A stretch of 64,000 bases of DNA from an uncultured Bacilli bacterium. GTDB lineage: Bacteria; Bacillota_I; Bacilli_A; RFN20; CAG-631. A program made the position numbers and the translations under genes. The notes beneath the pieces were generated by a model. The model saw only the letters and a list, made by a program, of their open reading frames with translations, had not been told where the DNA came from and made no database searches. The stretch covers positions 1 through 64,000 of the forward strand of contig CANQFQ010000004.1 in the NCBI GenBank assembly GCA_947599835.1, read 5' to 3'. Shown piece after piece: positions 13,722-37,009 of this stretch; the stretch's first letter is position 1; every line of letters starts with the position of its first letter.

Positions 13722-14375
13722 ATGGAAAAAGTGATCTTTCAATTATATAAGCATTTTATTGATCGCATGAATGAATTTTATCAAGAAAATGAAACGATTC
13801 AAGAAAGTGATATTGTTTTTGTTGGCGATTCAATTATAGAAATGCTCGATGTTAAGCAACTTCAATTACCATCTTATCGCATTTATAATCGTGGTATCAT
13901 AAGTGATAAAAGCGCGGGGGTCTTGATGTCTTTTGATGATCGTGTGCTAGCTCTTCGTCCTAAAGTGGTTGTCTTATTAATTGGGTCCAATGATATTTGT
14001 GATGGATATTTAATCAAACAAATTAAGCAAAATATCGAAGATATAATTTTAAAATTAAAAAAAGCCAAGATTCAGTTTGTTTTATTGACCTGCCTTCCTC
14101 CATGTTATGATTATAGCGCTAAGCATGTGGATCCCATCTATGGAAATTGTAGAAATATTTTGAAAATGCAAGAATTAAATCAAGAGATTATTTCTTTTGA
14201 AAAACGATATGATCATGTTCATGTTGTGGATGCATTTCACATTTACGCAAATGAAAAGTTATCTTTAGATAGTAAGGATACTTTAGATGGAGTACATTTA
14301 ACTCCTATGGCTTATGAAAAATTATTTAAGGTTTTAAAACCTTTATTAATTCAATTAATGAAAGGAGAAAAATAA
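13722..14375 (+). CDS. SGNH/GDSL-family hydrolase
   Basis: 217 aa from the ATG at 13722, chosen because GCGGTGAT lies 8-15 bases upstream. Block I FVGDSIIEML holds the catalytic Ser, block III is VLLIGSNDICDG (Asn), and block V is DTLDGVHLTPMAYEKL with Asp and His. Likely a platelet-activating-factor acetylhydrolase-like esterase acting on acetylated sugars or lipids. No signal peptide, so probably cytoplasmic. A TATAAT at 13697-13702 is a candidate -10. The next gene starts 1 base after its stop. Confidence 0.85.
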   Translation: MEKVIFQLYKHFIDRMNEFYQENETIQESDIVFVGDSIIEMLDVKQLQLPSYRIYNRGIISDKSAGVLMSFDDRVLALRPKVVVLLIGSNDICDGYLIKQIKQNIEDIILKLKKAKIQFVLLTCLPPCYDYSAKHVDPIYGNCRNILKMQELNQEIISFEKRYDHVHVVDAFHIYANEKLSLDSKDTLDGVHLTPMAYEKLFKVLKPLLIQLMKGEK

Positions 14376-14376
14376 A

Positions 14377-14762
14377 ATGATTTTTAAGGTCCCTTTATTA
14401 TGGTTATGGATCGTTTTATTCGTTGTACTGATGGTTGTGTTAGGTGTTTTCATTTTGATGATTGTCCGGCACATGAAAACGAAAAAACAATATCAACAAG
14501 AGCAAGAAGTGATTGATAATTATTATGTTAACATTATAGAAAGTGTTGGTGGAATCAATAATATTTTAAAAGTTGAAGCTTTACAATCAAGACTCAGTTT
14601 TTATTTAAAAGACCAAAGTTTATTACAAAGTGAAAAATTAAAAGAAATTCATATTCATGGAATTGTTAAAACTTCCAAAAAAATAACATTAGTGGTGGGA
14701 GAAATGGCAGTAAAATATGCCACGAATATACAAAAAGAAATGGAGCAAGGAGGAAACAAATA

Positions 14763-14763
<1 letters not shown>
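14377..14763 (+). CDS. membrane-anchored EIIB(glucose)-like domain without phospho-cysteine
   Basis: 128 aa. One N-terminal membrane helix (residues 5-31) is followed by a charged linker and a domain (residues 52-120) that matches the glucose-family PTS EIIB fold: ESVGGINNIL, VEALQSRLSF, then KLKEIHIHGIVK and VVGEMAVKYATNIQKEM. In active EIIB the second motif reads DACxTRLR; here Leu 69 replaces the phospho-acceptor Cys. Phosphotransfer is therefore not expected, and a sensing or scaffolding role is inferred. Its stop overlaps the dut start (TAATG). Confidence 0.65.
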
Positions 14764-17425
<2,662 letters not shown>

Positions 17426-17429
<4 letters not shown>

Positions 17430-18028
17430 AAAATAATTATGAAGAATTCATGGATAAAATAAATGAAATTAAAAAATTAAAAGAAAAGCCAACCCTTTTA
17501 TTGCATACATGTTGTGCTTTATGTTTTAGTAGTGCATATTTGCAATTAAAGGATTATTTTAAAATAACTGTCTTTTTTTATAATCCAAATATTTATCCAT
17601 TAGAAGAATATGAAAAACGTAAGCAAGAAGTTTTAAGGATGATCCAAATTTTTAATAATGAATATCATACCGAAGTACAATTTATTGAAAAAATCGATAC
17701 CTTTGATGATTATAAAAGCAAAAAAATTCATTCAAAAGGCTGCTTAGACTGTTTTCATTTAAGATTATTAAAATCTTTTATGTATGCCAATGAAAATCAT
17801 TTTGATTATATGACAACGACACTTACGGTAGGTAGACTTAAAAATTCAAAGTTATTAAATCAAATAGGTCAATCCCTACAATCCATGTTTGATCCTACCC
17901 AATATTTAATCAGTGATTTTAAGAAAAATGGGGGCATTGATTTGAGTTTGCAGTGTAAAGAAAAATATCATATCTATGCCCAATGTTATTGTGGTTGTGA
18001 ACCTTATTATCAAGAAAAATCTCAATAA
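17426..18028 (+). CDS. queH: epoxyqueuosine reductase QueH
   Basis: 200 aa. QueH is the non-QueG enzyme that reduces epoxyqueuosine to queuosine in tRNA and binds a 4Fe-4S cluster and a second metal. The N-terminal HTCCALC pair of cysteines, FFYNPNIYPLEEYEKRK, and later Cys residues (KGCLDCFHLRL, QCYCGCEPYY) are typical. ATGA overlap with queA. With tgt and queA this completes the tRNA-modifying end of the pathway; precursor-making genes are not in the window. Confidence 0.93.
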
Positions 18029-18054
18029 ATGGACATTCTTTATAAAATTTTTAG

Positions 18055-18084
18055 GCAAGTAAAGAAATTTATTTGCTTTTTTTT
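18055..18084 (+). terminator. rho-independent terminator after queH
   Basis: GCAAGTAAA (18055-18063) pairs with TTTATTTGC (18068-18076) with one G-T wobble, a 4-base loop and an eight-T run. It closes the tgt-queA-queH transcript. Confidence 0.85.
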
Positions 18085-18223
18085 TAAAAGTCTTTGTTTT
18101 CTCATTGATTTCATCTTTTTTGATAAAATGTGTTTCTTTTTTTGAAAAAGTGAATAGTATAGTAATAAAATGGCACAAAAAAAAGGAAAATATAGGAATT
18201 TTTAAGCAGGAAAGTAGCTTGCA

Positions 18224-18254
18224 ATTGACAAAGTCGGGGGGGGTATGGTATCAT
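18224..18254 (+). promoter_or_regulatory. promoter with G9 tract in the spacer, distal to the capsule locus
   Basis: A consensus TTGACA (18224-18229) is followed by AAGTC, nine G (18235-18243) and then TATGGTATCAT. The -10 could be TATGGT at 18244 (spacer 14) or TATCAT at 18249 (spacer 19), neither at the optimal 17. A homopolymer in a spacer can gain or lose bases in replication and so alter promoter strength. A near-identical element is at 34453. Confidence 0.65.
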
Positions 18255-18886: not shown

Positions 18887-18916
18887 TTGACATTTTGCTA
18901 GTTATATAGCAATAAT
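18887..18916 (+). promoter_or_regulatory. promoter with overlapping inverted repeat before the sugar kinase
   Basis: TTGACA (18887-18892) with a plausible AATAAT -10 at 18911-18916 (18-bp spacer). The spacer holds the inverted repeat TTGCTA-GTTATA-TAGCAA (18895-18912), placed where a bound protein would block polymerase. The first structural gene starts at 18994. Confidence 0.45.
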
Positions 18917-33831: not shown

Positions 33832-34548
33832 TATAAATAGGATAGTTTTTAAAACAAAGTTTATGTATAATAAAAATATATAAAAATATTTTTTAAAGAA
33901 TATAAAATCTTGAATAATTAAAAAATTATTTTAGTGATCTTTATATTCTTTTTTTATTCAAATAATTTTGCAAAGTTTTAATATTAACCATAAATAAATA
34001 TTTATCGGTAAATTCAGAGAATATTAAAAAAATAAGTTTTTAAGATAATTTTTGAAAAAGATCTTGAGGTTACGATCCTATCTTTGTATTTGAGTTCAAT
34101 GATATTTTTTATATGATGTTTAGCCAATCTGCATTTTAGGATTTTAGAATAAAATTACTAATAAAAAACATTTTTTTATTAAACAAATATTAGATTCTAT
34201 TTCATTCTTAAGATAACTTGTAAAATATTGTTTTGGAGTAAATGCAACAAAAAAATCATCATTTTGTCGATATTTTTTATTGATATTAATTCTATAAGTA
34301 TTTTTCTTGTTCTTTCATTCTCAATTTTACCTTTCTCATGTTGTCATCTCTGTGACTACAAAGTATCTTAGTTTTGAGACATTTTCAAATACTAACACTT
34401 AAGACATTATCATAGGCTAATCATAAAAATTATATACAAGCAATAAATTAACTTGACAAAAATCGGGGGGGGGTATAATTAAATAAGATTTTAATAAATG
34501 AATAATATACTTTATAAATAAAAACTGTTGTGCGAAAGGGAGATATAC
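33832..34548. other. 700-bp A/T-rich gap ahead of the acyltransferase
   Basis: No gene of convincing length on either strand. On the minus strand about 34300-34345 a short frame with MRKVKLRMKEQEKY resembles the first residues of some transposases but is followed at once by stops. The functional item is the poly-G promoter at 34453. Confidence 0.5.
34453..34479 (+). promoter_or_regulatory. promoter with G9 tract in the spacer, driving the acyltransferase
   Basis: Perfect TTGACA (34453-34458), then AAAATC and nine G (34465-34473), then perfect TATAAT (34474-34479). The spacer is 15 bp, two short of optimal, and 60% of it is the G run. Transcription would start near 34486, about 60 bases before the acyltransferase ATG, with no gene between. 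Gain of two G would give the ideal 17 bp spacing. Confidence 0.75.
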
Positions 34549-35655
34549 ATGAATGAAGGTCGAAAAATCAATCTAGATATATTAAGAATTCTTTCGATGA
34601 TATTTGTCGTGAGTTTACATTATCTTGGGAATGGTGGAGCATACTATAATATCACTAATGGTGATGTTAGTTTAATTAAGTTTAATTATGTATTATCTTC
34701 ATTTTTTCAAGCTTTATCTATAGTAGGTGTTAATTGTTTTGTTTTAATTACAGGGTATTTTTTAGTTAATGGTAAATTTAAAATAAAAAAGATTTTTAAT
34801 TTATTTTTAATAACTATATTTTATTCAGTCTTATTATTTATACCCTATGCTATAATTTATGGATTTTCTTTAAAAAATTTTATTAAGTCATGTTTGCCTT
34901 TATTAATGGGGACTTATTGGTTTATTACAGCTTATATCATTTTGTATATTTTAAGTCCATTTTTAAATATATTATGCAAACAAATGTCGAAGAAGCAATT
35001 TTTAATTTTCATTTGCATATTAATAGGAATTTTTTCACTTTGGAGAAGTATTATGCCATTTGCGGATAATGTTGAAAAAATACTTGGAACCAGTAGCGGT
35101 TATGGGATTGTTTGGTTTATAGTCTTATATTTTATTGGGGCTTATATTCATTTGCATGGTATCAATCTATTCAAAAAAAATATATTTAATTTAATGGGAT
35201 ATTTTATCGTGGCGATTGGAATGGTTGTTTCCAAATTATTAATGATTTTCCTTTCACAAAAATATATTGTCTTTGCAACAGGACAAAATTATTATTTTCA
35301 TTATGATGCAATCAGTGTTTTATTAGAATCTGTTTTCTTATTTGTTTTCTTTAAGAGATTAAATGTAAAATCTCAAATTATCTCTAAGATTGTTACATTT
35401 TTAGTTCCATCCATATTTAGTGTTTATTTAATTCACCAAAATTTTCAATGGACGAATCTATTATGGAATGATTGGTTAAAAGCAAATCAATTTGTAAATA
35501 GCAATTATTTCCTATTACACTATATGGGGTGTGTTTTATTAGTATTTGTATCTTGTATTATGATCGATCAAATTAGAAGAGGATTATTTTATTTGTTTAA
35601 TAAAATGATAATGAGTTTAAAATCAAAACATCACAATAACGATTGTATAAGTTAA
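34549..35655 (+). CDS. acyltransferase-3 family membrane protein
   Basis: 368 aa from the ATG at 34549 with AAAGGGAG 6-13 bases upstream. Ten or so membrane helices; the N-terminal NLDILRILSMIFVVSLHY contains the family's Arg and catalytic His, and FVLITGYFLV follows. These enzymes move acetyl or other acyl groups to exported sugars. It follows the poly-G promoter alone, so O-acylation could be switched independently of polymer synthesis. Confidence 0.85.
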   Translation: MNEGRKINLDILRILSMIFVVSLHYLGNGGAYYNITNGDVSLIKFNYVLSSFFQALSIVGVNCFVLITGYFLVNGKFKIKKIFNLFLITIFYSVLLFIPYAIIYGFSLKNFIKSCLPLLMGTYWFITAYIILYILSPFLNILCKQMSKKQFLIFICILIGIFSLWRSIMPFADNVEKILGTSSGYGIVWFIVLYFIGAYIHLHGINLFKKNIFNLMGYFIVAIGMVVSKLLMIFLSQKYIVFATGQNYYFHYDAISVLLESVFLFVFFKRLNVKSQIISKIVTFLVPSIFSVYLIHQNFQWTNLLWNDWLKANQFVNSNYFLLHYMGCVLLVFVSCIMIDQIRRGLFYLFNKMIMSLKSKHHNNDCIS

Positions 35656-36193
35656 TTAAAAAAGCCATTTTATCGGCAATTTTTATGAGAAATATTGGAA
35701 TTTATAAATGGTTTATAGAAGTATAGTCTATTCGTACATCATTTAGCTTAAGAATAGTTATGCTTCTATTATTTTTGTCTACGAAAGGTTTAAAGAAAAA
35801 ACTTTAAAGGCACATGAAAATTAGAAGGTGAATATTATACAAAATATAACATTTTAAATTGTACTATGTTGTTTAACAACTTATATTATGAGAACAAAAT
35901 TAAGCGATTATAGAACAATAAGAAAATCATTTATCAATAGTATAAAAATGATGTATCTATCGTTAAAAAATGATTAGTAACATATTTTTTTAGAAATAAA
36001 TGTACAGCAAAAATGAGAACTTGTTAGTTTGAATTGAAAGCCCAATTTCTTTTAGAAAGATATGTTGCAATTTAAAATTTAACTTAATGTTAATTGTCAA
36101 AATTAGGAATTCTTGACAAAGAAATTACTTTATATTATATTTAGTCATATGAATTTAGAAAAACACAATGTAAAATAAGGATGCGATTTTTAT
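35656..36193. other. 540-bp gap with promoter before licD
   Basis: No gene seen. Near the end, TTGACA (36113-36118), a 17-bp spacer and TATATT (36136-36141) form a good promoter, with about 50 bases to the licD-type gene at 36194. This gives the gene its own transcript within the capsule locus. Confidence 0.55.
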
Positions 36194-37009
36194 ATGCGAG
36201 ATAAACACTATTTAACTTTAAGAGAAATTCAGCTAAAAGAATTAAGTTTACTAATAAAAACTACTAAGTTTTTGGATGAAAATAATATTCGATATTTTTT
36301 AGATGGGGGTACTTTACTTGGAGCTGTAAGGCATAAAGGATTTATTCCTTGGGATGATGATATTGATATTGGTGTTCCGCGGCCAGATTTTGAAAAATTT
36401 ATTAATTTAGTAAAAAATAATCAAAATATTGATTTAAATGTAACATATTCAGAATTGAAAAATTCACATTTTCCTTTTGCAAAGGTTATAGATAAAAATG
36501 TTGTTTTGGAAAATTTAAACGATGCAGAAAGTGAGCATCTTTGGATAGATATTTTTCCTTTTGATGGAATTGAGGGATCACCTAAAAAAATAGAAAAAAG
36601 AATCAAAAAGATGATGTTTATTTCTAGAATGGTAGCTATACGATATTCAAAATTAAGTTTTGCTAAAGGAAAATTTTTTAAGCATTTAGTTAAGTTGTTT
36701 TTAAAACCAATTAGTTTATTTTATAGTCCTAAAAGGGTAATTAAATTATCTAAAAAAGATAATTTTGAAACTTCAAAATTTGCTGGTGATATTGTTTGGG
36801 GTACGGGCTTAAAAAATATAATTGAAAAAGTGAATTTTGATGATTATTGTTATCTTGAATTTGAGCATGAAAAATTTAAAGCGATTAAAAACTATGATAT
36901 TTATTTAAAAACATTTTATGGCGATTATATGACATTGCCACCAATAGAACAAAGAAAAACGCATAATTTTAAAGCGTATTGCATAGATGAAAAAGTTAAT
37001 AATGAATAA
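36194..37009 (+). CDS. LicD-family nucleotidyltransferase-like protein
   Basis: 271 aa. LicD core: YFLDGGTLLGAVRHKGFIPW followed by DDDIDIGVPRPDFEKF with the metal-binding Asp residues, and a C-terminal GDYMTLPPIEQRKTHN. LicD proteins transfer phosphocholine or related phospho-groups to surface sugars. No choline kinase or cytidylyltransferase (LicA/LicC) is in the window, so the donor is open. Paralogous to the gene at 38521. Confidence 0.88.
   Translation: MRDKHYLTLREIQLKELSLLIKTTKFLDENNIRYFLDGGTLLGAVRHKGFIPWDDDIDIGVPRPDFEKFINLVKNNQNIDLNVTYSELKNSHFPFAKVIDKNVVLENLNDAESEHLWIDIFPFDGIEGSPKKIEKRIKKMMFISRMVAIRYSKLSFAKGKFFKHLVKLFLKPISLFYSPKRVIKLSKKDNFETSKFAGDIVWGTGLKNIIEKVNFDDYCYLEFEHEKFKAIKNYDIYLKTFYGDYMTLPPIEQRKTHNFKAYCIDEKVNNE

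Follow-up and report, generated by a model that had tools for sequence, protein, structure and literature searches.

The window, a 64,000-nt stretch of DNA from an uncultured Bacilli bacterium (contig CANQFQ010000004.1), carries on its forward strand an acyltransferase gene preceded by a promoter that can be read directly. It consists of the -35 box TTGACA (34453–34458), the bases AAAATC (34459–34464), a tract of nine G (34465–34473), and the -10 box TATAAT (34474–34479), which touches the tract. The gene (34549–35655, + strand, 368 aa) encodes an AT3/Acyl_transf_3 membrane protein, as determined by a family scan (PF01757, E = 6e-26). Its likely start is the ATG at 34549, with a ribosome site, AAAGGGAG, at 34535–34542. 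An earlier note, made from the sequence alone, had claimed TTGACA and TATAAT boxes with a 15-bp spacer containing nine G, and this held exactly. Its claims that the acyltransferase begins about 60 bases downstream with nothing between, and that two more G would give 17 bp, also held: the distance from the -10 box to the start codon is 69 nt, in which no ORF was found, and the spacer, AAAATC plus G9, is 17 bp minus two G. No match to a structured RNA in Rfam was obtained in the window. Long, very AT-rich non-coding stretches border the gene (33832–34452 and 35656–36193; region ~23% GC), possibly as the result of a later insertion or of decayed genes.

The acyltransferase is part of a Wzx/Wzy-type surface polysaccharide locus (18985–40792, + strand), as inferred from family scans and ORF lists. 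The locus also includes kinase-like, sugar-phosphate transferase, and FkbH-like genes, those for FnlA/WbcJ/WecB-like UDP-sugar enzymes, and the flippase, LicD-like, chain-length, and tyrosine-kinase genes. A second poly-G promoter, TTGACA-AAGTC-G8-TATGG-TATCAT (18225–18254, + strand; G8 at 18236), with an 18-bp spacer and an extended TG -10, is located distal to the head of the locus, ~730 nt upstream of its first gene. It may not be the sole promoter there, since a promoter-like TTGACA-18-AATAAT at 18887 is closer to that gene. In the leader that runs from the second poly-G promoter to the locus, the search for an attenuator gave only a weak fold (z = -1.8), and no surface-gene remnant was found by comparison with the sister genome. 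The LicD-like gene (36194–37009), next after the acyltransferase, provides an internal contrast: before it stands a separate promoter-like site of the ordinary kind, whose spacer is 17 bp (TTGACA-17-TATATT, 36113–36141, + strand). Because the head of the locus carries a poly-G promoter of its own, the capsule backbone need not stay constant, and the earlier claim that it would remain unchanged is not safe. That the acyltransferase modifies the capsule, also claimed, rests on gene neighbourhood only.

In dinucleotide shuffles of the window, a G8 run was expected 0.02 times per window, and two separate runs were observed, both in a TTGACA-Gn-TATxxT frame, for which the expectation was 0.00. Apart from these promoter tracts, a scan of both strands revealed no G or C run of ≥8 in the window, including the acyltransferase frame. 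NeuO and OafA are switched via repeats within the reading frame. A translational switch of that type was rejected here, since the tract is upstream of the -10 box, outside the frame, and the frame itself has no such run. An invertible promoter beside a chance G run would be another explanation, as surface switching by invertons is common in gut Bacteroidales, but it can be practically dismissed: there are no convincing inverted repeats around the promoter, its AT-rich arms are just 70–71% complementary, and the one 12-nt pair found does not enclose it.

In the 1.4-Mb genome there are ten distinct runs of G≥8, and eight of them lie inside -35/-10 spacers, where random placement would put ~0.001 (two of the eight promoters were counted with at least one mismatch in one box). 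These tracts have eight to ten G, and none of the eight spacers is 17 bp as assembled. No tracts of 5–7 G were found in such spacers of this genome, the G≥5 pattern having matched only tracts of ≥8. Of the two other runs, one (C1) is just 5′ of an ABC permease gene and one (C7) has no -35/-10 frame. Besides the acyltransferase and the polysaccharide locus, one poly-G promoter each precedes a NatA-like ABC ATPase, an exported protein of 1837 aa, and a Band_7/SPFH zinc-ribbon operon. Another precedes a Big_2 lipoprotein together with an operon for sugar transport. In a further case the promoter is followed by a short exported protein, after which come a SipW-like signal peptidase and a PARCEL-repeat surface protein; by eye, and without a family match, the short protein resembles TasA. 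A second signal-peptidase-like gene, also accompanied by an exported protein, lies behind the remaining one. Most of the genes and operons behind these at least eight promoters therefore probably concern the cell surface.

A surface bias was also observed for the class as a whole. The first genes behind poly-G promoters had a secreted or lipoprotein look in 99 of 147 cases (67%), against 88 of 627 other ORFs of the same loci (14%; p = 8.5e-37). A single simple rule, hydropathy plus lipobox, was used for both sets, and related loci make the p-value less independent than it appears. The Pfam matches include BspA leucine-rich repeats (LRR), Big_2, InlB-like repeats, SLH, and ABC ATPases. In a relative of the same order, two MBOAT O-acyltransferases are under poly-G promoters (L029 and L034), which in all likelihood represents an independent case of an acyltransferase so placed. 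NatA-like ABC ATPases under such promoters in other lineages (L078, L206, and L217) have 61–66% identity to that of this genome. The presence of this ATPase across distant lineages (L010, L078, L206, and L217) might mean that it is a shared target or that gene and promoter were transferred as a unit.

Three poly-G promoter sites were detected in the same-genus genome (G001) and none in two same-family genomes of another genus. They were present in 8 of the 279 genomes of the order sample (4 of 56 genera, 3 families), in 21 of 395 in the class sample, and in 54 of 396 in the Clostridia order sample, while the reversed pattern used as a control was found zero times in all genomes of these samples. 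A scan of named GTDB genomes returned at least 119 stretches. The matches were mostly from gut and rumen Clostridia and Bacilli, with others in Saccharibacteria, Ancillula, Streptobacillus, and Helicobacter; one was from a member of the order, Erysipelotrichaceae bacterium SIG219. Among the named strains with the pattern are Pumilibacter muris, Hydrogenoanaerobacterium saccharovorans, and Streptobacillus notomytis. In P. muris, an isolate from the mouse gut, the gene behind a poly-G promoter (L106) encodes a BspA-like LRR protein. The genome of Candidatus Ancillula sp. Gsp477_bin129 (G292) has 25 copies of one type, TTGACA-AGC-G9..15-TGC-TATAAT, with an extended -10. A phage origin was rejected, since of 2.9 million viral contigs only 4 matched. 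Because the hosts are mostly short-read metagenome assemblies, the tracts could be suspected to be sequencing or assembly artefacts, such as two-colour poly-G reads. This can be set aside almost entirely, as unique sequence lies on both sides of the tracts, the promoter frame is exact, the reversed pattern is absent from all tested genomes, and named strains carry the pattern.

A poly-C version of the promoter is rare, with 9 sites in 7 of 396 genomes (G518, G619, G327, G444, G457, G621, and G524), and was for this reason ruled out as an equal alternative. Its common layout is C8–10, then G plus mostly T-rich bases, then TATAAT. The spacers are only 15, 16, or 18 bp, with 16 bp in 7 of the 9 sites and never 17 bp. 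In 55 of 88 poly-G promoters a C is immediately 5′ of the tract, and G is far commoner than C on the coding strand (54 vs 7 genomes); spacing alone explains neither of these preferences. Both would favor the view that the tract is a regulator binding site or a structural element (A-like or G-quadruplex DNA) of a conventional regulon. We consider this very improbable, since the tract varies widely in length and in its distance from the boxes (spacers of 11–23 bp), which is unusual for an operator, the poly-C versions likewise avoid 17 bp, and the occurrence of the class across distant phyla makes a shared regulator unlikely.

The spacer was 17 bp in 14 of the 143 poly-G promoters, drawn from two genome samples, compared with 95 of 135 ordinary perfect consensus promoters, counted in genomes G279, G673, and G000 (p = 1e-26). 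The other poly-G spacers were chiefly of 15 (15 promoters), 16 (24), 18 (38), 19 (30), and 20 bp (10). The Clostridia sample dips at 17 bp (25, 7, and 20 promoters at 16, 17, and 18 bp, respectively; p = 0.001). A dip exactly at 17 bp is not universal, because the Bacilli sample has no 16-bp spacers and has 7, 18, and 18 promoters at 17, 18, and 19 bp, respectively. Many of the poly-G promoters counted are related, so the p-values overstate independence. We infer that the assembled majority length is usually one to three slips from the optimum, which would fit a common state that is OFF or low. Selection against very strong promoters would give a similar picture; against this, those same genomes abound in ordinary consensus promoters with a 17-bp spacer.

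Differences in tract length were observed between otherwise equal promoters. For example, promoters with identical AAAATATGC arms have G10 and G11 in one genome (G038) and G11 in a genome of another family (G172). Identical AAACTATAC arms in two species enclose G8 and G9, as do ATTTTGC arms in two species, and identical AATTGAATAC arms inside a single genome (G1022) enclose G8 and G9. The 25 closely similar promoters of the Ancillula genome range from 9 to 15 G. The tract differed in 19 of 35 homologous promoter pairs and was the same in 16, and the single ortholog pair in the genus, that of the Big_2 lipoprotein (L006/L021), has G8 in both members. Variation between otherwise equal promoters is thus shown for the class. 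The only same-genus genome lacks an ortholog of the acyltransferase, and variability of the acyltransferase tract itself is therefore inferred from the class; the comparison with related genomes suggested by the earlier note was thus fulfilled at the level of the class only.

These data bear on a further explanation, in which the G tract is a fixed detuner, i.e., a G-rich, off-length spacer that weakens a consensus promoter, any switching being incidental and unselected. That most poly-G spacers are off the optimum and that some homologous promoters, including the ortholog pair of the genus, are equal in tract length are consistent with it. Nevertheless, we regard it as unlikely. Changes in the hexamers would be a simpler way of weakening, yet the hexamers are consensus and the spacer is a hypermutable repeat. 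In addition, the absence of 5–7 G tracts from the spacers of this genome is as expected under selection for a slippage-prone length, copies with identical arms differ in tract length, and the targets are strongly surface-biased.

The acyltransferase site is therefore most likely a phase-variable promoter of the porA type, in agreement with the earlier note, whose proposal is supported as the best explanation by the eight promoters of the genome, the recurrence in other bacteria, the differences in tract length, the under-use of 17 bp, and the surface targeting. All of these, together with the promoter anatomy, are shown; switching itself is still inferred, as there were no reads and no second strain (one genome per species). 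A promoter of this type has a homopolymer of ~8 or more between the -35 and -10 boxes, as is the case here (G9, 15-bp spacer), and drives a cell-surface gene, which is met by an AT3 protein in a polysaccharide locus and by the class-wide bias, with acylation of the capsule, and the capsule as acyl acceptor, being inferred. In the proposed mechanism, G9 forms most of the spacer between two consensus boxes, and slippage of the DNA polymerase would add or remove G and bring the spacer nearer to or further from 17 bp, thereby increasing or decreasing transcription. This dependence of expression on length, like switching within a clone, is inferred. At the assembled spacing of 15 bp, little or no expression of the acyltransferase is predicted, and one or two additional G would raise it by giving a spacer of 16 or 17 bp. 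With at least eight such promoters, the cell would seemingly set a number of traits at random, most of them of the surface: whether a polysaccharide is acylated, possibly the production of that polysaccharide, and the state of an ABC exporter, of a lipoprotein operon, and of matrix-like exported proteins along with the signal peptidase that goes with them. G-runs before T are hot spots of point mutation (PMC12344412), and the tract could therefore possibly erode the adjoining -10 box.

MutS was present in all eight poly-G genomes of the order, against 74 of 273 genomes overall (P = 2e-5), an association confounded by phylogeny. It runs opposite to what the loss of mismatch repair as an enabler would require, and that idea was ruled out. 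Any switching would thus happen in repair-proficient cells, and long G tracts are perhaps affordable only with mismatch repair, a suggestion that phylogeny also confounds.

The mechanism itself is known. In Neisseria meningitidis, porA (poly-G) and fetA (poly-C) likewise have a homopolymer of ~9–11 in the -35/-10 spacer of a surface gene, with spacing near 17 bp optimal and tract length setting expression (PMC3639595, PMC7864442, PMC5320596). For porA, expression is graded across tracts of 11G, 10G, and 9G, and switching becomes more frequent when mutS is lost (PMC3639595), while shortening the spacer from its optimum of 17 bp abolishes transcription (cited in PMC7864442). Those cases involve few promoters in pathogenic Gram-negatives, whereas in the low-GC gut-type bacteria considered here a single design with consensus hexamers recurs at no fewer than eight promoters in this genome and at up to 25 in another. 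In Treponema pallidum, poly-G tracts of ≥8 are also upstream of surface-protein genes (tpr) and their length affects transcription, but the tract of tprL overlaps the -10 region and leaves the -35/-10 spacing unaltered (PMC7864442). NeuO (E. coli K1 capsule), OafA (Haemophilus), and OafB (Salmonella) also acylate surface glycans, the latter two being AT3 proteins like the one in the window (PMC9558356, PMC13001214); promoter spacing is not known to be their switch, and that of OafB is epigenetic (PMC9558356). The invertible promoters of gut Bacteroidales are alike in switching many surface loci of gut commensals at random at the promoter level, but they need inverted repeats and a recombinase, none of which was found here. 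The novelty would be the standardised, multi-locus version in gut commensals, with switching still inferred; a search of open-access papers, which did not extend to subscription articles or preprints, yielded no uniform multi-promoter version in such bacteria.

We lean, by a narrow margin, towards a bolder reading: that consensus promoters into which some nine G are built as a detuner, mostly leaving the spacer one to three slips away from 17 bp, are a standard and repeatedly evolved switch module, and that in many uncultured gut Bacilli and Clostridia this module underlies a genome-wide surface phasome that works through promoters alone. If so, phase variation by repeats at multiple loci would be common among gut commensals, any one locus being low or OFF in most cells, and would be a second genome-wide mechanism of surface switching in gut bacteria, alongside invertible promoters. 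The signature, found in many uncultured gut and rumen lineages with up to 25 promoters per genome, is machine-readable, so tract lengths in metagenomic reads would predict the ON/OFF state of surface genes without culture. Culturable hosts, e.g., Pumilibacter muris, allow direct tests.

Finally, the two same-genus genomes are 82% identical over the tgt/queA/queH block (13740–18254 of the window, up to the second poly-G promoter) and diverge just past queH. Just beyond the point of divergence, each has a poly-G promoter (L201 in G001). The cargo that follows is wholly unlike, being the polysaccharide locus in the window and exported proteins of 213 and 1105 aa in G001, and the site after queH resembles a hot spot for insertions with a switch promoter at its front.
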